A stretch of DNA of 64,000 nucleotides from assembly GCA_021292105.1 (NCBI GenBank), contig CM037861.1:60371245-60435244 (forward strand), read 5' to 3'. A program made the translations under genes and the position numbers. Shown here piece by piece: positions 8,298 through 62,879 of this stretch (positions are counted from its first letter, which is position 1; each line of letters starts with the position of its first letter). This stretch comes from Anadara kagoshimensis. Lineage: Eukaryota; Mollusca; Bivalvia; Arcoida; Arcidae. Below the pieces are notes generated by a model. That model was given only the letters and a program-made list of their open reading frames with translations. It searched no databases and was not told the origin of the DNA.

Positions 8298-9640
8298 ATT
8301 AAATGTAAATGTTGTTATCTAGAGGTGATATTTAAAATGAAATTCCTTCATATCTTGAAAAGTAAAAAAAATTCTAAAGATTTTAAATTTTGAAAGATTT
8401 AATTTTAGATAAACAATAGCCAAGGAATGATTGTGAAACTGGGGTCTGGATTCCAGTGTTTATAGAGTAGAATGCTGTCTAGTCAAGATTGGGCCTGGAT
8501 TCCAGTGTTTATAGAGCAGAATGCGGTCTAGTCAAGATTGGGCCTGGATTCAAGTGTTTATAGAGTAGAATGTTGTCTAGTCAAGATTGGGCCTGGATTC
8601 AAGTGTTTATAGAGCAGAATGTTGTCTAGTCAAGATTGGGCCTGGATTCAAGTGTTTATAGAGTAGAATGCTGTCTAGTCAAGATTGGGCCTGGATTCCA
8701 GTGTTTATAGAGCAGAATGCTGTCTAGTCAAGATTGGGCCTGGATTCAAGTGTTTATAGAGTAGAATGTTGTCTACAGTAGTCAAGATTGGGCCTGGATT
8801 CCAGTGTTTATAGAGCAGAATGCTGTCTAGTCAAGATTGGGCCTGGATTCAAGTGTTTATAGAGTAAACTAAATTAAATGTAAATGTTGTTATCTAGAGG
8901 TGATATTTAAAATGAAATTCCTTCATATCTTGAAAAGTAAAAAAATTCTAAAGATTTTAAATTTTGAAAGATTTAATTTTAGATAAACAATAGCCAAGGA
9001 ATGATTGTGAAACTGGGGCCTGGATTCAAGTGTTTATAGAGTAGAATGTTGTCTAATCAAGATTGGGCCTGGATTCAAGTGTTTATAGAGTAAACTAAAT
9101 TAAATGTAAATGTTGTTATCTAGAGGTGATATTTAAAATGAAATTCCTTCATATCTTGAAAAGTAAAAAAATTCTAAAGATTTTAAATTTTGAAAGATTT
9201 AATTTTAGATAAACAATAGCCAAGGAATGATTGTGAAACTGGGGCCTGGATTCAAGTGTTTATAGAGTAGAATGTTGTCTAGTCAAGATTGGGCCTGGAT
9301 TCAAGTGTTTATAGAGCAGAATGTTGTCTAGTCAAGATTGGGCCTGGATTCAAGTGTTTATAGAGTAGAATGCTGTCTAGTCAAGATTGGGCCTGGATTC
9401 CAGTGTTTATAGAGCAGAATGCTGTCTAGTCAAGATTGGGCCTGGATTCAAGTGTTTATAGAGTAGAATGTTGTCTACAGTAGTCAAGATTGGGCCTGGA
9501 TTCCAGTGTTTATAGAGCAGAATGCTGTCTAGTCAAGATTGGGCCTGGATTCAAGTGTTTATAGAGTAGAATGCTGTCTAATCAAGATTGGGCCTGGATT
9601 CAAGTGTTTATAGAGTAGAATGCTGTCTAGTCAAGATTGT
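8298..9640. repeat. 49-bp tandem array with an interspersed 150-bp spacer
   Basis: The 49-bp unit GGCCTGGATTCAAGTGTTTA... TAGTCAAGATTG repeats through the region. A spacer of about 150 bp (from AATTAAATGTAAATGTTGTT to CCAAGGAATGATTGTGAAAC) occurs three times, at 8298-8452, 8873-9015 and 9098-9245. A 3-bp insertion variant, GTCTACAGTAGTCAAG, occurs at 8771 and 9473, about 702 bp apart, so a multi-unit block was duplicated as a whole. Confidence 0.93.
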
Positions 9641-24010: not shown

Positions 24011-24012
24011 GG

Positions 24013-24826
24013 GACAATATAGCCCGTCAATGTAAGGACAATATAGCCCGTCAATGTAAGGACAATATAGCCTGTCAATGTAAGGACAATATAGCCCGTC
24101 AATGTAAGGACAATATAGCCTGTCAATGTAAGGACAATATAGCCTGTCAATGTAAGGACAATATAGCCTGTCAATGTAAGGACAATATAGCCCGTCAATG
24201 TAAGGACAATATAGCCCGTCAATGTAAGGACAATATAGCCTGTCAATGTAAGGACAATATAGCCCGTCAATGTAAGGACAATATAGCCTGTCAATGTAAG
24301 GACAATATAGCCTGTCAATGTAAGGACAATATAGCCCGTCAATGTAAGGACAATATAGCCTGTCAATGTAAGGACAATATAGCCTGTCAATGTAAGGACA
24401 ATATAGCCTGTCAATGTAAGGACAATATAGCCCGTCAATGTAAGGACAATATAGCCTGTCAATGTAAGGACAATATAGCCTGTCAATGTAAGGACAATAT
24501 AGCCCGTCAATGTAAGGACAATATAGCCTGTCAATGTAAGGACAATATAGCCCGTCAATGTAAGGACAATATAGCCCGTCAATGTAAGGACAATATAGCC
24601 TGTCAATGTAAGGACAATATAGCCTGTCAATGTAAGGACAATATAGCCCGTCAATGTAAGGACAATATAGCCTGTCAATGTAAGGACAATATAGCCTGTC
24701 AATGTAAGGACAATATAGCCTGTCAATGTAAGGACAATATAGCCCGTCAATGTAAGGACAATATAGCCCGTCAATGTAAGGACAATATAGCCCGTCAATG
24801 TAAGGACAATATAGCCCGTCAATGTC
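24013..24826. repeat. 24-bp satellite, 34 near-identical copies
   Basis: The unit GACAATATAGCCYGTCAATG plus TAAG repeats 34 times without indels. The only variable site is Y: 16 units have C (a CpG) and 18 have T (TpG). The minus strand is open through the array (repeating LTGYIVLT) only because 24 is divisible by 3. That frame has no ATG at its upstream end, so it is not called as a gene. Confidence 0.98.
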
Positions 24827-33240: not shown

Positions 33241-34326
33241 TTACAAACACTCTTTTTCTTTTTCAATTTGCTTTTCCTCATTAACAGGTTTGTATGTTTG
33301 ATTGAGTTCATAGCCTCCATTGCTCAGTCGCTGTGATCTGGAACCATCTGAATGGAAACCTTTTCTAGACATTCGTTTAAAAATCTTGAATAAAATTTTC
33401 CTAAATTTCCTTCCGGCGGCAGTGTAAATGAGAAAATTCACGGCTGAGTTCATAACAAACAAGGTGTTACTAACTGCTATCCATTTTAGCATAACTCCTT
33501 TATCAAAGAGAAAGTTAAACTGAGCAAACAATCCTGGTGTTTGACAAAGTATAAAAACAACAACTATCAACACTAGAACGAGGCTCAAATTAGCTTCACT
33601 TTCCTCTTGAATATTTGTTCCGGTGCGCCTTTTACGCATGCGCATTAGCTCTACGATAAGCAGAGTATTTAACACTGACAATAGCGTTAGGGGTATTATA
33701 TAAATTATAAATGCAAACATCCAAACCATATAAACATTAATATAGAAATAACTTTTTCCAAAATATGTCGTCACCAATTCAAAACATTCTACTTCCGGTT
33801 TCTCTTTGCATGGCGTCTGTGGTTGAGTTGCAAACAGTCGTGGGATATTGTAAATAACTGAAATGATTGATATTGTAATTAACGAAACCCAGGTTTTACG
33901 TTTTGTACAAATCCTTGTGGCAATAAATGGATGACATATCGCTATATACCGTTCCACGGACACAAAAACTGTTATCCAAACATTACACAATTGAATTGTC
34001 ATGACTATATAATTTATTGCTGTATAGATATTTGGGTATATAACATCTTTGAAGTAATGTAATTCCGGATGAAAAAGTGACATAGTGTGTAGACTGGTTG
34101 GAGTACTAGCAAATATTAATATTCCAGTATCCGTGACAACTAAAGCGCGAAGAAACAAAATCGTCGTGGACTGCATTTCCCGTCGCCATAGGACCACCAT
34201 TGTAAGTATATTCCCAATAACTCCAAATAAGGATAATAGGCAGCGTAATCCCCATGAAAATATACTGCAGTCGAAAAGCTTCGTTGGATTCTGTGTCGTT
34301 AGCATAGTCTTGCAATACTTCGCCAT
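33241..34326 (-). CDS. FMRFamide-receptor-like GPCR, copy 1
   Basis: A 361-aa ORF with seven hydrophobic segments, so a rhodopsin-family plasma-membrane receptor. Landmarks: GNILTMVVLW in TM1 (39-47), ERYIAICHPF at the end of TM3 (125-134, the E/DRY position), a long TM5 (YMVWMFAFIIYIIPLTLLS), MRMRKRRTGTNIQEESEANLS before TM6, CQTPG in TM6 (261-265), NFLIY in TM7 (297-301), then a basic GRKFRKILFKIFKR helix 8 and a roughly 45-residue tail. The ERYIAICHPF/CQTPG/NFLIY set resembles lophotrochozoan FMRFamide-type peptide receptors; the ligand is inferred. The family's N-terminus lies in another frame (ATG at 34369, MTIREINLAVSLEYNGEVLQ, glycosylation site NDT). It is cut off by a missing dinucleotide near 34232-34238 compared with copy 2. 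The ATG at 34326 overlaps it in the alternative frame and re-enters before GVIGN, so a seven-helix product with a different N-terminus is still possible. There are no introns in the ORF. Confidence 0.85.
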   Translation of the reverse strand: MAKYCKTMLTTQNPTKLFDCSIFSWGLRCLLSLFGVIGNILTMVVLWRREMQSTTILFLRALVVTDTGILIFASTPTSLHTMSLFHPELHYFKDVIYPNIYTAINYIVMTIQLCNVWITVFVSVERYIAICHPFIATRICTKRKTWVSLITISIISVIYNIPRLFATQPQTPCKEKPEVECFELVTTYFGKSYFYINVYMVWMFAFIIYIIPLTLLSVLNTLLIVELMRMRKRRTGTNIQEESEANLSLVLVLIVVVFILCQTPGLFAQFNFLFDKGVMLKWIAVSNTLFVMNSAVNFLIYTAAGRKFRKILFKIFKRMSRKGFHSDGSRSQRLSNGGYELNQTYKPVNEEKQIEKEKECL

Positions 34327-34369
34327 TATATTCCAAACTAACAGCTAAGTTAATCTCGCGTATTGTCAT
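34106..34369 (-). pseudogene. Original N-terminal frame of GPCR copy 1
   Basis: The ATG at 34369 begins a peptide parallel to the start of copy 2 (YNGEVLQDYANDT against YGGEYLQDNGNDT, then LQYIFMGITLPII against LQYVFMGILLPII). After PII the frame goes out of register because two bases are missing, and it ends without TM helices. If the deletion is a sequencing error, this is the true start of the receptor. Confidence 0.8.
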
Positions 34370-37605: not shown

Positions 37606-37674
37606 GATATTGATATACGAATATACAATTGTCGTTAGTCTTATTAAATATTATGATAATTTTGAAATATATCG

Positions 37675-38870
37675 GGATCAATTACCTACAAAGATTGTAT
37701 CCTGCTTTCTCAGTTTACTGCGTGTTTATGATAGGTAATTATTGTTTTCAGTTACTTCGTGTTTAAGTCTTTAATAAACATGGTATTGTGTTACAGGTGA
37801 TACACTGTAAATGCTTTGACAGAGCTTTGTCATATTTAGTTTTGAAACAATGAAATCGGGCCCCATTTTCACAATCATTTTTAAAATAAGTTTTTTCTTT
37901 ACTTTTACCTGGATAATAAATTAAAGATTTTTTAGAAATAAAATAAAATAAAGAACGTATTTCTATCACTTAGTACTAAGAGACAATATGTTTACACATC
38001 AAAATATTACTCGTCTGTTGTCATATTCTAAATATTTTGAATATTCTATTAAGAAAATTTATACAACGTCTCTTTCTGCCAAACCCTGCTGTCATTCCCC
38101 TTACAGTAAAACCGGACTAGATTAACTATAAAGATTATTTCCAACTTTCTTGGTTTATTGTAAGTGATTATTGTTCTGTTTTTATGTTTAAGTCATTATT
38201 AACCATAAAAGTTCATTGTTGGCAATACACCGTGAAAGATGTTTACAAACGTTCTGACAGAGAACTTTGTCATATTCAGTTTTGAAGAAAAAAATAACCA
38301 GACCCTATTTTCACAATCATTTCTTAAATAAGATTTCGCTAAAATAAAATCTGGATAACTGATTAAAGAAATTAAAAAAAGAGTACAAAGAAGCAAATGT
38401 CTATCGTTAAGTATTCAGTGCCAATCTTTTTATACATTTGTATATAAAAATGACATCTATCTTCTGTCATATTATAAATATTTTGATTTCAATTAGGAAA
38501 TTCAAATCTTTATAAAATGACTCGTCTCTTTCTGCTGAGCCCTTTTTTATCCCCTTAAAGTAACTACTGGGGTGGATTACCTACAAAGATTATATTCTTC
38601 TTTCTCGGTTACCTGTTAATTAAGATTAATATTATAATTCGTTAGTAAACATTAAATTGTTGTGTTACAGGCGATACATTGTGGAAGATGTAAACGCTTT
38701 GGCACATAACTATGTCATATTAAGTATCACAGTTATTTCTTAAATAAGAGTTTCTTCAATTTTAACATGAAAAATTAATTAAAGAAATTTTTAAAAAATA
38801 CAAATAAGCCAATTTCTATCATTAAGTATTCAGTGGCAAGTAATAATAAATAATAATTAAAATGGATAAG
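37675..38870. repeat. Degenerate tandem repeat of about 450 bp, units 1-3
   Basis: The anchor GATTACCTACAAAGATTGTA recurs at about 37680, 38112 and 38573. Each unit then has a TTTCTCGGTTTACTGCGT block, GTTACAGGYGATACACTGTG, CTTTGYCATATTTAGTTTTG and CCATTTTCACAATCATTT. The third unit is interrupted by the RT pseudogene; further units follow at 39820-40680. Confidence 0.8.
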
Positions 38871-38883
38871 ATACCATCAACAA

Positions 38884-39480
38884 AATGTTGGAGTTTTTGA
38901 TAGATAACATATTTGTTGTGTTTGCTAATTAAATACTTTTTCAGCAAACAATCGGTATACCAATGGGTACAAACTGTGCACCATTGCTTGCTGATCTGTT
39001 TCTTTATTCTTATGAAGCAGAATTTATGCAGAACCTTGTTAAATCTGGAGAGAAGACTGTCGCCAAATCATTCAACTCAACATACAGATTTATAGATGAC
39101 GTTCTGTCTCTTAACAATCCCAAATATGTAAATGTCATCTATCCTAGTGAGCTTGAAATAAAAGGCACGACTGATTCCTCAAGTTCTGCTTCTAATTTAG
39201 ACTTATACCTGAATTACCTTTTTTATGCAGCAATATACCTACTTCCCCTGCTTATGGTGTATTTGTTTCCCAATTAAGACGCTATGGTAGAGCTTGTTCC
39301 CACAACGCGGACTTTGTACAACGAAGTAGGCTGCTTGCAAATAAATTGTTGACTCGGGGATATTGCAAGCCTATGCTTATCAAGGCCCTCAAAAAGTTTT
39401 ATGGCCGCCATCACAGTATTGTTAATAAGTTTTACGTCTCTGTGTCCAGGATTGCCCTGGATATATTTGACGTCTCATAG
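38884..39480 (+). pseudogene. Reverse-transcriptase retroelement, longest copy, degraded
   Basis: The reading starts LEFLIDNIFVVFAN, stop, ILFQQTIGIPMGTNCAPLLA; the GIPMGTNCAPLLADLF motif is the RT palm region. FRFIDDV-like YRFIDDVLSL follows (YxDD catalytic motif, here IDD). After DLYLN about 26 residues of the family are missing. From 39217 a different frame gives PFLCSNIPTSPAYGVFVSQL, KLLTRGYCKP, KKFYGRHHSIVNKF and ALDIFDVS, ending at TAG 39478-39480. So it has one in-frame stop, one deletion with frameshift and no 5' part. I know this RT type as widespread in aquatic animals but do not assign its clade; Penelope-like origin is possible, not shown. Confidence 0.85.
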
Positions 39481-39685
39481 TTCCATTTTCCTTTCACACA
39501 ATTTTGATTACACACGTGGCGGGTGTAGCTAGCTAAACAGGAGGTGCTTACCCTTCCGGAGCACCCGGTCTCACTTCCCTGCTGGAAGTTTACGTGTATA
39601 ACCTAACTTGTCAGTTCCAAAGTTTTTACTTTGCTTCTGGATTCTGATTCGGACATGGATAAGTATGTTTGTTTTTGATAAATAA
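39481..39685 (+). mobile_element. 3' UTR of the RT element family (reference copy)
   Basis: The best-preserved 3' UTR: GATTACACACGTGGCGGGTG, AGGTGCTTACCCTTCCGGAG, CACCCGGTCTCACTTCCC, AAGTTTACGTGTATAACC, then TCGGACATGGATAAGTATG and TTTGTTTTTGAT. Confidence 0.88.
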
Positions 39686-39819
39686 TTGATGAATTTTTTT
39701 TTTAAATTATAAAAAAGCGCATTTTAATCTTCTGTCAAAGAATAAGTATTTTTAATATTTAAAAAATAAAATAAATGTTTGAATATGACACTTCTCTTTT
39801 TGCTGAACCCTACTTTTAT

Positions 39820-40680
39820 TTTCTATAACGTACAAACCGGGTGGATTATCTGCAAAGATTATATCCTACGTTCTCGGTTTACTGCGTATTTATCATAAGT
39901 AATTACTGTATCAGTTACCTCATGTTTCAGTCAACATTAGACGGCCGTTTCAGAATATAATTCCTGATCAGTAGTGCTTGGACCAAAATTATGAAACCAA
40001 ATTGTTTACAAAATGTTGAAAAGATTATCAAAGGGCCGACATATATTTTATTAAATTTAGTTAAGGAAATACTTTGCATGAGAGTATACCTTAGTTTTTG
40101 AGGAATTTCACATTTTATCTACCAGCAATTTTAGACAATAGTATATTTCTGACAATAATACATAATGCACCGTGAAATGTGTAAACGCTTTGGCACCGAA
40201 TTTTGCCACATTTAGTTTTAAAACAAAATAACCAGGCTTCATTTTCACAATCGGTTTTTAACCTGGATAATTAATTTTAAAAAAGTAAAAAATCAAAGAA
40301 GCGTATTTCTATCATTAAGTAATCGGTGGCAATATATTTACATATCAAAATACCCTATTCAAAAACATAATTAAGATTTAATAATTTGACACTTACTAAA
40401 CCCTAGTCTTATCCTCCTTAATGAAACCATCGGGGTGGATTACCTACAAAGATTGTATCCGACTTTCTCGATTTACTCCGTATATATTATATATCAGTAT
40501 GTAGCTAGTTGTTTTTCAAACAAACATGGCAATCTATATTTATGCCCAACATACATACTAATCCATGTAAGATCCAAATGAACAAATATATTTATATATA
40601 AAAATACAATAGACATTCGTCTTCTGTAATATTATCAATTATTTGAAATATATCGCGGTGGATTACCTACAAAGATTGTA
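39820..40680. repeat. About 450-bp tandem repeat, later units
   Basis: The GGTGGATTAYCTRCAAAGAT anchors recur at about 39843, 40437 and 40663. One unit is split by the hammerhead element at 39930-40160. Confidence 0.75.
39934..39979 (-). ncRNA. Hammerhead ribozyme remnant (core mutated)
   Basis: The minus strand keeps GAAAC, stem III ACGGCCGT and GTC, but the CTGATGA box reads CTGATCA (G8 changed), which should abolish cleavage. Stem I has one mismatch (AGCACTA/TAATGT). Confidence 0.75.
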
Positions 40681-40683
40681 TTA

Positions 40684-41030
40684 CATATTATACCGGTACT
40701 AGTTTTAATTTTACAGCCAGCACTAGACGGCCGTTTCGGAATACAATTCCTTATCAGTTAGTGCTTGGACCAAAATTATGAAACCAAAATTATTTTGAAG
40801 ATGTTGAAAAGCTACCCAAAGGATCAAAATATATTTTACCAAATTTAGCTAAGGAAATACTTTGCATAAGGAGTATACCTTAGTTTTTGAGAAATTTTAA
40901 ATTTTAACTTGCAGGAAATTTAGACAGTTATAGTATATTTCTGACAATAATACGAAATTATTACCTATTGAGTTTGTGATATCCTCAGAGCACCAGCCAA
41001 CAGCAGAGATATTGGCTCAGGGGTTTAAAT
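40684..41030 (-). mobile_element. Hammerhead element, tandem copy 1
   Basis: On the plus strand the unit runs from TATTATACCGGTACTAG through the ribozyme, then TGCTTGGACCAAAATTATGA, CTAAGGAAATACTTTGCATA, TATACCTTAGTTTTTGAGAA, and GAGTTTGTGATATCCTC to the start of the next copy. Direct repetition 339 bp apart matches 41031 onward. Confidence 0.85.
40719..40766 (-). ncRNA. Hammerhead ribozyme remnant (core mutated), tandem unit 1
   Basis: Minus strand: AGCACTA, an extra A, then CTGATAA (G8 to A), stem II GGAAT/ATTCC, CGAAAC, GGCCGTC and TAGTGCT. All helices are intact but one invariant core base is lost. It lies 339 bp from the next copy in the same orientation. Confidence 0.8.
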
Positions 41031-41057
41031 TACATATTATACCAGTTTTAATTTTAC

Positions 41058-41104
41058 AGCACTAGACGGCCGTTTCGGAATACAATTCCTCATCAGTAGT
41101 GCTT
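41058..41104 (-). ncRNA. Type I hammerhead ribozyme, intact core, tandem unit 2
   Basis: Minus strand order: stem I AGCACTA; box CTGATGA; stem II GGAAT-TGT-ATTCC (5 bp, 3-nt loop); box GAA; stem III ACGGCCGT; cleavage triplet GTC; stem I TAGTGCT (7 of 7 pairs). All invariant core bases are present. Stem III is a perfect 8-nt palindrome with no room for a loop. In known minimal type I hammerheads of retrozymes and Penelope-like elements this favours a dimeric active form. The element body downstream on the plus strand is interrupted by a Tc1/mariner-type MITE from 41170, outside the ribozyme. Confidence 0.9.
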
Positions 41105-41169
41105 GGACCAAAATTATGAAAGCAAAATTATTTTGAAGATGTTGAAAAGCTACCCAAAGGACCAAAATA

Positions 41170-41936
41170 CAGGTCCAACAAGAAAGTTTGGGCACCCCAT
41201 GAAAGTGATTCATAGCTAGCCACAAATTTGTTCGTTATAATAATTTTTGACATGCTTTATCAATGATTTGTTTAATAGTTTGTTACATGTGACATACCAC
41301 TAGATCTAATCGATGTAACTTGGACACAATAAAATTGCAAAAGACTCTGTTATCTCCCTTTATATTACAGACACAAAAACGGGTGTCTTTTGGCAAAAAT
41401 GATTTTAAACAATGAGAACAAAGCATTTGTTCCACAACATAAGTAAAAAAAAAATTTTAAGTCAAATAATACTTTAAAACATCTTTTTGCAGTAGAAAAT
41501 GGACATTATACGAAAAATGAATGATCATTAAATACACTAACCAAAAATCCAATTTTACCTTATTTCTAAGTATTTTAGTATTTTCAATACAAATTGAATT
41601 TAAACAGATAAAATGACACATTTTACTAAAAAAAGTGCTTAATAATCACTTTGAACTAAGCGTTTAAAGTCGTTTCCGGTATTTCTATTTATTAAGTCCA
41701 TATTTGAAGAAATGGGATTTTTCCCAAATATTTTCATTTTTTTTATCACTCACTGTTCACTAAAAACTAAAATTGAAACTTTTATCAATTATGCCATTTA
41801 AATAACATTCTAGGTAGTATATAAAAATAGTCTTTTAACGAATATAAGTTAACAAAACACCAAGTACTAAGACCATTAACATTGCTTTTTTACAAAGGTT
41901 ATAGAAGGGGGTGTCCAAACTTTCTTGTTGGACCTG
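41170..41936. mobile_element. Tc1/mariner-type MITE with TA duplication
   Basis: 767 bp with inverted ends CAGGTCCAACAAGAAAGTTT plus GGGCACCCC at left and, read inward, CAGGTCCAACAAGAAAGTTT plus GGACACCCC at right. TA lies on both sides (41168-41169 and 41937-41938). Removing it restores the AAAATATATTTT seen in sister hammerhead copies. There is no transposase ORF, so it is non-autonomous. Confidence 0.92.
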
Positions 41937-42224
41937 TATATTTTACCAAATTTAGCTAAGGAAATACTTTGCATAAGGAGTATACCTTAGTTTTTGAGAA
42001 ATATCAAATTTTAACTTGCAGGAAATTTAGACAATTATAGTATTCTTCTGACAATAATACGAAATTATTGCCTACTGAGTTTGTGATATTCTCGGGGCAC
42101 CAGCCACCTACTCTCTCAGTTTACTGCGTATTTATCATAGGTAATTATTGTTTTCAGTTACTTCGTGTTTACATGTTTAAGTCAATAACAACGTTCACAT
42201 TGGTATTGTGTTACAGTTCGATAT

Positions 42225-42400
42225 TATACCAATGTCAATTTTACAGCACTAGACGGACGTTTTGGAATACAAAGTACTTAAACAATTAATTGTGAAACCA
42301 AAATTTTCTAAGAGGTTTAAACATATTAAGATCCAAAATATATTTAAACAAATTTAGCTAAGTAAATACTTTGCATGAGGAAGTATACCTTCGCGACAGG
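42225..42400 (-). mobile_element. Degraded hammerhead element copy
   Basis: AGCACTAGACGGACGTTTTG and GAATAC remain from the ribozyme; the CTGATGA box is lost. The body has AAATTTAGCTAAGTAAATAC and GAGGAAGTATACCTT. Confidence 0.7.
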
Positions 42401-42409
42401 CGATACACT

Positions 42410-43290
42410 GTGAACATGTTAATGCTTTTACACGTGACCTTGTCATGCAATGCTTTAGGTTTTAAACAAAATAATCAGACCCCAGTTTTACAATTATTAT
42501 AAATAATATTGTCCCTCAATTGCATCTGGTAAATTTTAAATCTTAACTTGTTCAGTTTTAACATAGTCAGGAGTTTTAGGTGTAATTTTGAGAATTCTAA
42601 AACTTTAGAACATTTGTATTCAGTTATGTCAAATATGTTTATTTGTAGTTAAAAAATGCCAAAATTTGGTAAATTTAAGTTATTGAAAATCTCAATTAAG
42701 CCTAGGACCTGTCACTCTGAACAACACCCATTAAATGTGCATTTAAAATACCATAGTCAAGGACTAGAAAAACACAACGTCTCCTATGGAACCGAAATAT
42801 CTTATATATGCCTTACCGGTATCAGACAATTCTCAATAAAATAATATTTTCTAAACTTACCAGAAATAAAGTTCTGTCGGAAGATAACCGTAAAAACAAA
42901 ATAAAGCCGCTTGTAAATGCTTATGAATTGGTTGGAAATCAAACTTAAACATACCGCTGTATGTCCATTTTATGAAAATTAAAGATTTATATTTTTAATT
43001 TAGCTAATATCAAACACAAATCCAACAATCATATTTTAAAATATTGTATCAATCAACCATGAGTCTTGAAATGTCAGAAATATCTAGAAACTACATGTGT
43101 TTGAGTAAACTTAAATCAATTTATTAGTTTTCGTAATGTATTTGATTCTTTTAAAAGTACGTGCTTCCCTAATCCTAATGTGAAAAAAGTCACTACTTTG
43201 TTTCTTTAAGCGATTAATATCTATAACAACATTTCACGTAAAAAAATTATTACAATTAGAGAAAAGTGTTTTTGTAACTCTTAACTTTGT
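42410..43290. other. AT-rich DNA with a further 450-bp-unit fragment
   Basis: 42405-42500 repeats GGCGATACACTGTGAACATG and TTTTAAACAAAATAATCAGA of the 450-bp unit. The rest holds no recognised feature. Confidence 0.5.
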
Positions 43291-47085: not shown

Positions 47086-47205
47086 TGGTATCTTCAAAAT
47101 AATTTTGGTTTCATAATTTTTGTCCAAGCACAACTGACGAGGAATTGTTTTCTGAAACGGCCGTCTAGTGCTGTAAAATTAAAACTGGTATAATATGTAA
47201 TTTGT
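47085..47205 (+). mobile_element. Hammerhead element fragment, plus strand
   Basis: Starts near ATCTTCAAAATAATTTTGGT, TTCATAATTTTTGTCCAAGC, then the ribozyme, CTGTAAAATTAAAACTGGTA and TAATATGTAATTT. Confidence 0.83.
47127..47172 (+). ncRNA. Type I hammerhead ribozyme, core preserved
   Basis: AGCACAA, box CTGACGA (C at the free N7 position, which is allowed), stem II GGAATTGTTTTCT (weakened, with a mismatch), GAAAC, stem III ACGGCCGT, GTC, TAGTGCT. Stem I has one A/A mismatch. The invariant core is complete; activity may be reduced. Confidence 0.8.
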
Positions 47206-49730: not shown

Positions 49731-49894
49731 TGACGCAAATTGACTTTGTTTTGATAATGAAATGTTTAGGAGTGGTCAATAAACGAAACAAAATGAATCT
49801 TTTATTAAAACATTTATATACCTGATACAATTAGAGCGATTAGCGAGTTGATTAAAAAAATACTATTGTCTAAATTTGCTACTAGTTAAAAGTT

Positions 49895-50110
49895 GAAATT
49901 CAACAAAAACTAAGGCATACTCCCTCATGCAAAGTATTTCCTTAGCTAAAATTGATAAAATATATTTTGGCCCTTTAAATATCTTTTCAACATGGTGAAA
50001 ACAATTTTGGTTTCATAATTTTGGTCCAAGTACTACTGATGAGGAATTATATTCCGAAACGGTCGTCTAGTGCTGTAAAATTAACAATGGTATAATATGT
50101 AATTGTGACA
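49895..50110 (+). mobile_element. Hammerhead element, plus strand
   Basis: AACTAAGGCATACTCCCTCA, GCAAAGTATTTCCTTAGCTA, AATATATTTTGGCCC, then TTTCATAATTTTGGTCCAAG, the ribozyme, and CTGTAAAATTAACAATGGTA with TAATATGTAATTG. Confidence 0.88.
50029..50073 (+). ncRNA. Type I hammerhead ribozyme, intact core
   Basis: AGTACTA, CTGATGA, stem II GGAAT-TAT-ATTCC, GAA, stem III ACGGTCGT (pairs with one G-U), GTC, TAGTGCT (stem I pairs with one wobble). All invariant bases are present. Confidence 0.9.
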
Positions 50111-50299
50111 TCATTATTTTCGCGGTATGTAATTGTAACATCATTATTTTCGTGGCGTCCCAATTTTCGTTGTTTTCGTGAACACACTGATCCATGAATT
50201 TACATGTCAACAAAATAGTATATTACAAATGCATCTTTAATGGTAACCGCAGACAGCGAATTTACCATTTCACGTAATGGCATTTTTAATCAGAAGATT

Positions 50300-56174: not shown

Positions 56175-56560
56175 TAAATAATTACATAATGTACCGGTGT
56201 TAATTTTACAGCACTAAACGGCCGTTTCGGAAGAATGCAATTCCTTATCAGTAATGCTTGGGCCAAAATTGTGAAACCAAAACTTTTTCAAGGGGTAAAA
56301 ATACATCCGAAAGACCAAAATATATTTAACAAAATTAGCTAAGGAGGGAGTATACCTTAGTGTTTTAGAATCTTCAGATTTCAACTTACACCAAAATCAG
56401 ACAATAGTATATTGCTGACAAAACAAAAGTATTTGTGTACTAAGTTTATGATACTCGCGGGGAACATCCACATTCACCAGTAGAGACACCGGCTAAGTGG
56501 TTTTAATTTCATATTATACCAGTGTTAATTTACAACACTAGACGGCCGTTTCGAAATAAG
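56175..56560 (-). mobile_element. Tandem pair of hammerhead elements, minus strand
   Basis: Two direct copies 324 bp apart: GCACTAAACGGCCGTTTCGG at 56211 and ACACTAGACGGCCGTTTCGA at 56535. Each is preceded by an ACCRGTGTTAATTT(T)ACA leader. The second is cut off soon after the GAAA box. Confidence 0.82.
56211..56259 (-). ncRNA. Hammerhead ribozyme remnant (core mutated)
   Basis: Minus strand: AGCATTA, CTGATAA (G8 to A), stem II GGAATTGCATTCTTCC, GAAACGGCCG, GTT instead of GTC at the cleavage site, TAGTGCT. The G8 change predicts no activity. Confidence 0.75.
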
Positions 56561-61895: not shown

Positions 61896-62876
61896 TTAAC
61901 AATGTTTTAAACTTTCTTCAACGGCAGTATAAATGAGGAAATTCACTGATGAGTTTGTCACAAATAAAGTATTGCTGACTGCCAGCCATTCAACATGACA
62001 ATTCCGTTGATAAAAAACAAATTGAGCAAATAAACCCGGCGTTTGACAAAGTATAAAAACAACAACTATTAACACCAGAACGAGGCTCAAATTGGCTTCA
62101 CTATCTTCTTGAATATTAGTTCCTGCGCGTCGTTCACGCATGCGCATTAATTCTTTGATAATTAAAATATTTAGCACTGATAATAAAGTTAAGGGTATTA
62201 TATAAATAATGATTGCGTACATCCAAACCATGTACACTGTCACATACATATAACTCTCACCAAATGCTGTATTCACCAATACAAAACACGAACCTTCTAC
62301 TGAGTTATGTGGGCAAGGCGTCTTAGCGCGAGTTGCCAGTGCTCGCGGAATGTTATAAATAACGGCAATTATTGAAATAGAAATTAATGAAACCCAGGTT
62401 TTACGTTTTGTGCAAATCCTTGTGGCTATAAATGGATGACATATCGCTATATACCGCTCCACGGACACAAAAACCGTTATCCAAACATTACACAATTGAA
62501 TTGTCATGACTATATAATTCACTGCTGTGTAGATATTTGGGTATATAACATCTTTGAAGACATACATTTCAGGGTGGAACAAAGCAATAGTAAATGGACT
62601 TATAGCGACACACGCCACAATGATAATTCCAGTATCTGTTATAACCAAAGCACGGAGAAACAAAATCGTCGTGGACTGCATTTCCCGTCGCCATAGGACC
62701 ACCATTGTTAGTATATTCCCAATAACTCCAAATAAGGATATTATAGGCAACAGGATTCCCATGAAAACATATTGCAGTTGAAAAGCTTCCCATAATGCCG
62801 TGTCATTTCCGTTATCCTGTAGATACTCGCCTCCATATGTCATATTAATCGCAAAGTTTACCTCGTGAACTCCCAT
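61896..62876 (-). CDS. FMRFamide-receptor-like GPCR, copy 2, tail truncated
   Basis: A 326-aa ORF, ATG at 62876. The extracellular N-terminus carries two N-glycosylation sites (NMT, NDT). TM1 has GNILTMVVLW, TM3 ends ERYIAICHPF, then IPLTLLSVLNILIIKELMRM (TM5), GTNIQEDSEANLSLVLVLIV, CQTPG in TM6 and NFLIY in TM7. It is nearly identical to copy 1 over long runs, especially TM1, TM3-TM4 and TM6. After NFLIYTA the reading becomes VEESLKHC and stops at TAA (61896-61898), while copy 1 continues AGRKFRKILFKIF. A missing base near 61918-61922 explains this, and one extra base further on restores the frame. The old tail (SIGGYEMSQLYKPVNE) is still readable to about 61745. As it stands the product would lack helix 8 and the tail. 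Such receptors couple to G proteins at the plasma membrane and bind RFamide-type peptides; the ligand is inferred. Confidence 0.85.
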   Translation of the reverse strand: MGVHEVNFAINMTYGGEYLQDNGNDTALWEAFQLQYVFMGILLPIISLFGVIGNILTMVVLWRREMQSTTILFLRALVITDTGIIIVACVAISPFTIALFHPEMYVFKDVIYPNIYTAVNYIVMTIQLCNVWITVFVSVERYIAICHPFIATRICTKRKTWVSLISISIIAVIYNIPRALATRAKTPCPHNSVEGSCFVLVNTAFGESYMYVTVYMVWMYAIIIYIIPLTLLSVLNILIIKELMRMRERRAGTNIQEDSEANLSLVLVLIVVVFILCQTPGLFAQFVFYQRNCHVEWLAVSNTLFVTNSSVNFLIYTAVEESLKHC

Positions 62877-62879
62877 GTT

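Follow-up and report, generated by a model that had tools for sequence, protein, structure and literature searches.

The repeats at this locus belong to a family whose anatomy, as read from the sequence, fits a metazoan non-LTR retrozyme and not a Penelope element. Most of the copies examined have a fixed 3′ end about 37 nt beyond the cut site of a type I hammerhead ribozyme, with scattered 5′ ends and no signal of target-site duplication; the template appears continuous over the cut, and there are young copies with intact motifs. We consider it probable that this is a non-autonomous retrozyme with a ~340-nt unit, copied from a hammerhead-cut, circular template by reverse transcription from a fixed site. 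All positions refer to the window, i.e. the whole 64-kb stretch of DNA that was analysed.

The original prediction of two minus-strand hammerhead motifs inside copies of one unit was borne out (hammerheads b and c, Table 1). The cut sites fall between 40725/40726 and 41064/41065, which gives the predicted spacing of 339 bp; the second motif has the intact core CTGATGA, GAAA and GTC, the first reads CTGATAA and thus carries the G8 mutation, and stem III is the 8-nt palindrome ACGGCCGT. In hammerhead c, stem I has 6-7 bp and stem II 5 bp, and ACGGCCGT within a single molecule folds into only 2 bp with a GGCC cap. The stems are nearly invariant across 13 aligned sequences. Hammerhead b is expected to be inactive.

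In the covariance-model check proposed for the type I assignment, RF00163 scores in 101-base scans, with 28.1 bits at 41059-41102 (minus) and 23.5 bits at 50030-50073 (plus), both below the gathering score of 34. At gathering thresholds Rfam has no match in the whole 64-kb window, a 2.4-kb scan at E≤10 has no hammerhead among its matches, and an Rfam hammerhead search returned 0 matches in the organism's own genome and likewise 0 in its 14 control genomes, and was flagged as uninformative. A type I descriptor recognizes two sites in the 64 kb (41096 minus and 50036 plus). The mean count was 0.033 over 150 dinucleotide shuffles, of which 3 had at least one site and 2 had at least two. Eight positions match the core pattern, four of them in 39.9-42.4 kb and the others at 47.1, 50.0 and 56.2-56.5 kb. 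A chance motif was dropped as an explanation because shuffles rarely give sites and family members lie around it.

Folding was predicted for single and paired motifs. For hammerhead c alone, the hammerhead fold (−6.2 kcal/mol) is less stable than the best fold (−10.7 kcal/mol), while two copies cofold into a complete dimeric hammerhead through the palindrome ACGGCCGU at a predicted −31.3 kcal/mol. Hammerhead e is predicted to pair similarly to c; two copies of hammerhead f gave no dimeric hammerhead in the cofold. Of 500 shuffles, 127 equal the energy gain of the c dimer; the case for a dimer is therefore structural and not statistical. A 339-nt circle would be 51% paired, with an energy z of 0.16 against 60 shuffles and hence no extra stability; the high self-pairing reported for circular retrozyme RNA, which is not a strict criterion, is not seen here.

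The unit profile matches nine stretches of the window, corresponding to six insertions (Table 1). G8 is changed in a, b and g (3/6 copies) and kept in c, e and f. The second unit of insertion bc is split by a MITE-like element, for which BLAST found no second copy in the window. Insertions a, bc and d lie in a diverged tandem repeat with a period of ~440 bp (37607-42500; 37681-38424 and 38121-38839 are 65% identical), and this host allows the target sites to be compared with uninterrupted sequence. The joined flanks of bc match the repeat copy at 37607-37796, where no more than 2 bp are lost and nothing is duplicated; those of d match 37701-37889, where a 4-bp duplication is possible; those of a match the host repeat with a gap, so that part of the target is missing there. 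No empty site for e, f or g was found in the window. Scattered 5′ ends, together with the target repeat in its uninterrupted form, led us to drop the idea that the units are only a local satellite.

Table 1 Hammerhead motifs, unit and insertions of the family in the 64-kb window, with the element that interrupts insertion bc.
Feature	Position	Strand	Description
Hammerhead b	40719..40766	-	G8 replaced by A, with one additional A
Hammerhead c	41058..41104	-	intact core; cut between 41065 and 41064; type I descriptor and RF00163
Unit, cut to cut	40726..41064	-	339 nt, 31% GC
Insertion a	39932..40161	-	0.7 unit; G8 replaced by C; 3′ end off the common point, 8 nt beyond the cut
Insertion bc	40680..42106	-	~1.9 tandem units; 3′ end 40680, 5′ end 42106 (ribozyme sense)
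Insertion d	42214..42391	-	0.55 unit; hammerhead lacks its 5′ half; a 4-bp target duplication is possible
Insertion e	47092..47203	+	0.34 unit; core residues intact; mismatch in stem I
Insertion f	49856..50104	+	0.74 unit; hammerhead intact; RF00163 and descriptor
Insertion g	56180..56558	-	1.16 units, more diverged; hammerhead 1 with G8 changed to A, hammerhead 2 only 3′ half
MITE-like element	41170..41937 (approx.)		inverted arms of 35 nt, 94% complementary; TA on both sides

Other features of the window were recorded alongside. A 30-bp tandem duplication at 50096-50152 takes in the last nucleotides of insertion f. A decayed reverse transcriptase fragment lies at 38945-39480 (RVT_1 E 0.018 for its first part, 38945-39211), and about a dozen occurrences of its 3′ part were found in the window. 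Two similar open reading frames for rhodopsin-family receptors (PF00001) are found on the minus strand at 33241-34344 and 61896-62879, and minisatellites at 854-2772 (35-bp units), 8442-9639 (49-bp) and 24012-24825 (24-bp).

The insertions in the window are ragged at one end and mostly uniform at the other. In the ribozyme sense, their 3′ ends lie 36 (bc), 31 (d), 38 (e), 37 (f), 37 (g) and 8 nt (a) past the cut. Five of the six thus fall within 7 nt of each other (31-38 past the cut), a clustering as tight as which occurred in 1 of 200,000 random draws. The 5′ ends, at unit positions 66 (bc), 184 (d), 263 (e), 125 (f), 322 (g) and 112 (a), are compatible with a uniform distribution (p 0.80).

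The same pattern holds in a sample of 26 stretches of 10 kb each (260 kb) from contigs C1-C7 of the same assembly, placed at round-number coordinates except for two that adjoin the window. It holds 13 copies, the first 11 of them hand-chained from profile matches; L010a and L013b match weakly; L019b may be two insertions and was counted once. With the cut after consensus position 298, 10 of the 13 copies end at 331-336 (observed 333-336), or 35-38 nt past it, giving a binomial tail of 9e-16 against uniform ends; none of the 13 has its 5′ end at 331-336. The exceptions are L005, with its 3′ end at 151, L013b, at 180, and L013a, at 297 in pairwise alignment and ~324 with a rotated profile. Rotating the query to put the junction inside it gave similar ends.

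Young copies were sought with a 170-bp query from the bc locus that spans the unit junction. This genome search gave 293 candidates and 40 scored matches; the 39 scored matches other than the query's own locus are 93-99% identical to the query, and the 40 are spread over 14 contigs. From the 40 we picked 12 recent loci for dispersion and high identity, a choice that favours tandem copies since the query spans the junction. The 3′ end is visible in 11 of them and lies at model position 331-332 in 11/11 by profile. L028 and L030 have a common 3′ flank, which leaves 10 distinct 3′ ends; in pairwise alignment six of these fall at consensus 334-336 and the other four 1 to 6 nt further out, because the aligner extends into the start of the next unit; all lie within 8 nt of the common point. 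L028 and L030 are one insertion present twice on contig C2, ~0.3 Mb apart, probably as a segmental duplication.

Pooling all sets gives 29 distinct insertions, of which 24 share the common end point, or 25 when d is counted. Ends within 3 nt of the cut are seen in no window copy and in one of the 13 sampled copies (L013a). Evidence against a fixed start comes from three of the 13 sampled copies and from window copy a, which have their 3′ ends at other positions. The family thus combines a constant 3′ end with variable 5′ truncation, as in LINE/SINE-type insertion. The target-site duplications of several bp that go with that type were not found: across 22 insertions the mean longest flank match is 3.82, compared with 3.63 (sd 0.17) for swapped flanks, and the longest match reaches at least 6 bp in 2/22. 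Duplications of up to ~5 bp remain compatible with this test.

The recent loci hold 1.8 to at least 4.5 units each, and in 12/12 the units adjoin head to tail, their profile matches separated by no more than a few nt; the 30 full units are 308-350 nt long. Of 41 hammerhead positions in these loci, 29 satisfy the descriptor; every position does so in L027 (4/4), L028 (5/5), L031 and L033, and no position in L034. In the 13 copies of the 260-kb sample, one hammerhead passes (L004). All 30 full units keep G8, as judged by eye. We had entertained the G8 change as the mark of an uncleaved template, and abandoned this because few copies carry it and the 30 full units retain G8.

Units diverge by a mean of 1.9% inside an insertion and 4.3% between insertions, and on a tree most insertions group by locus. 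Within-locus distances are all smaller than that to the nearest foreign unit in only 2 of the 10 loci with at least two full units (L028 and L031), and the case for one monomer per insertion is therefore modest. Two arrays are mixed: in L032 a deletion is common to the 5′ and 3′ units and absent from the middle ones, and in L031 the 5′ unit differs, so that a multimeric template or later exchange is needed. The two units of L004 share 22 variants relative to the window consensus (two at the edges); we gave these up as proof of a single monomer, as the nearest unit of another locus is equally close (2.1%). In L027, L028, L029 and L030 divergence tends to be greatest in the 3′-most unit, where reverse transcription would begin, a trend absent in L031, L032 and L038.

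Scaled to the whole genome, the 12 copies in the 24 sampled stretches away from the window would amount to ~56,000 copies or fragments (Poisson range 29,000 to 97,000) if the stretches are representative. Outside the animal genome, no matches were found in viral contigs or bacterial and archaeal genomes (exact pattern) or in phages, and none would be expected for an animal element.

These features agree with those of metazoan non-LTR retrozymes. The type I hammerhead is present at two window sites and 29/41 positions in recent loci, with RF00163 below gathering; the unit, at 339 bp and 31% GC, lies within the short, low-GC tandem repeats of 150-450 bp; and the copies are dispersed and mobile, on 14 contigs and, for bc and d, in a target whose uninterrupted form is at hand. 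Of the family that the original prediction envisaged, with type I hammerheads and monomers of roughly 340 nt, the unit length and the type I hammerheads in direct repeats stand. Release of a monomer by two cuts is unlikely at bc itself, which has one intact core and one with a changed G8. The suggestion that intact copies might exist elsewhere is borne out by the recent loci, L027 and L028 among them. As for the two element classes named as carriers, the anatomy is that of a retrozyme, and nothing found ties the units to a Penelope open reading frame.

In the mechanism we favour, multimeric transcripts would be cut by their type I hammerheads, perhaps acting as pairs, since two copies of c form a dimeric hammerhead and the single motif prefers another fold. 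The monomers would be ligated into circles, as published work on mussels leads us to suppose (PMC7229834; this and the other papers cited are drawn on in excerpt). Synthesis by a borrowed reverse transcriptase would then begin at a single fixed internal site, ~37 nt 3′ of the cut, proceed back over the ribozyme and go round the template, covering anything from part of one lap to 4 laps or more. The resulting cDNA would be inserted with a ragged 5′ end and without a detectable target duplication. The circularity of the template, the dimeric cleavage and the enzyme are what we infer in this scheme. A ribozyme-cut RNA would end at the cut and most copies end ~37 nt beyond it, so the template was presumably either ligated or never cut.

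A template that was never cut is the basis of one alternative, in which the element and its fixed start are the same, the RNA is the uncleaved linear multimer of a tandem locus, no circle forms and the ribozyme is dispensable. It would account for copies with the common end reading through the cut site, for the mixed arrays of L032 and L031, and for the finding that 8 of the 10 multi-unit loci have a foreign unit no more distant than some unit of their own; in addition, hammerhead mutants of the Anolis Penelope element leave in vitro insertion unaffected (PMC11167929). However, most insertions still group by locus on the tree, and mussel retrozyme RNA is mostly circular (PMC7229834). We regard a linear template as rather unlikely.

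Spread at the DNA level, as an ordinary satellite with the hammerhead as a passenger (through DNA circles, unequal exchange or a Helitron-like element), appears highly improbable. Tandem arrays and the want of a duplication signal would suit it, and a single fixed end recalls Helitrons. Helitrons have a fixed 5′ end in addition to their other fixed end, whereas the 5′ ends here are scattered, and reinserted DNA circles should yield whole units. We give just as little credence to the units as pseudo-LTR fragments of an autonomous Penelope-like element, although such elements do have tandem type I hammerheads and a fixed internal start 3′ of the hammerhead (PMC11167929). The units stand head to tail in 12/12 loci, with gaps of a few nt that are too short for a reverse transcriptase, and the open reading frame with reverse transcriptase and GIY-YIG domains that Penelope-like elements have between their repeats was not found in these arrays. 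The reverse transcriptase fragment beside the array (38945-39211) lies on the opposite strand, and a GIY-YIG regular expression had no match in the window and one unconvincing match in the loci.

The retrozyme we favour has its closest counterparts in mussels. Those of Mytilus galloprovincialis likewise combine type I hammerheads with tandem repeats, low GC and a high copy number, and have a unit of 350-390 bp compared with ~340 here (PMC7229834); the likeness drawn here is one of anatomy. Their RNAs are mainly circles (PMC7229834; Cervera and de la Pena 2020; also PMC7761336), and Penelope-like elements are described as a strong candidate for mobilising them (PMC7229834; also PMC7761336). The satellite retrozymes of newt and axolotl resemble the present family in their weak stem III, palindromic tetraloop and supposed dimeric action, and differ in having vertebrate hosts (PMC7229834). 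The LTR retrozymes of plants share a model of variable-length cDNAs made off a circular template, but carry type III hammerheads, LTRs, a PBS, a PPT and 4-bp target duplications; hammerhead repeats of Nematostella, with 15-bp duplications, also differ from this family (PMC4918200).

The fixed end finds its parallel in Poseidon, a Penelope-like element of Anolis (Frangieh 2024, PMC11167929). It too has a tandem type I hammerhead, and downstream of the hammerhead cut its genomic copies share a fixed internal end point. With purified Anolis Penelope protein, reverse transcription begins at an internal site that likewise lies downstream of the hammerhead, and in vitro the main template is unprocessed RNA (PMC11167929). 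Unlike the family here, Poseidon is autonomous, with an open reading frame for reverse transcriptase and GIY-YIG; it has two adjacent start sites where we see one, and they lie ~85-92 nt past the cut (by subtraction from the paper's numbers) compared with ~37 nt (PMC11167929). Insertion without target duplication has been described for a bdelloid Penelope element (PMC3846280). The fixed-end anatomy of our copies resembles this Penelope signature, and the same class of enzyme could be at work. Because the internal-start anatomy is common to both, our guess for the partner is a Penelope-type reverse transcriptase.

The 2020 mussel paper proposed a primed circle and a borrowed reverse transcriptase and left the primer open (PMC7229834). 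Variable-length cDNAs off a circle were likewise already proposed (PMC4918200), so the rolling idea is not new; the addition made here is the fixed start point. Fixed 3′ ends of animal retrozymes were the subject of no paper found in our search of titles and abstract openings, with supplements and most subscription papers outside its coverage. We put forward tentatively, as quite possible, that animal retrozymes in general are reverse transcribed from a fixed internal start on circular RNA, ~37 nt past the ligated cut, by an enzyme, likely of Penelope type, that rolls around the circle, and that their arrays are frozen laps.

How retrozyme RNA finds its way back into DNA is an open question on which the fixed 3′ junction bears. 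Its position past the cut argues against priming at the 3′ end of a cleaved linear monomer and indicates a template that is continuous there. The fixed-end signature can be mapped in any retrozyme-bearing genome and compared with the Penelope elements of that genome.
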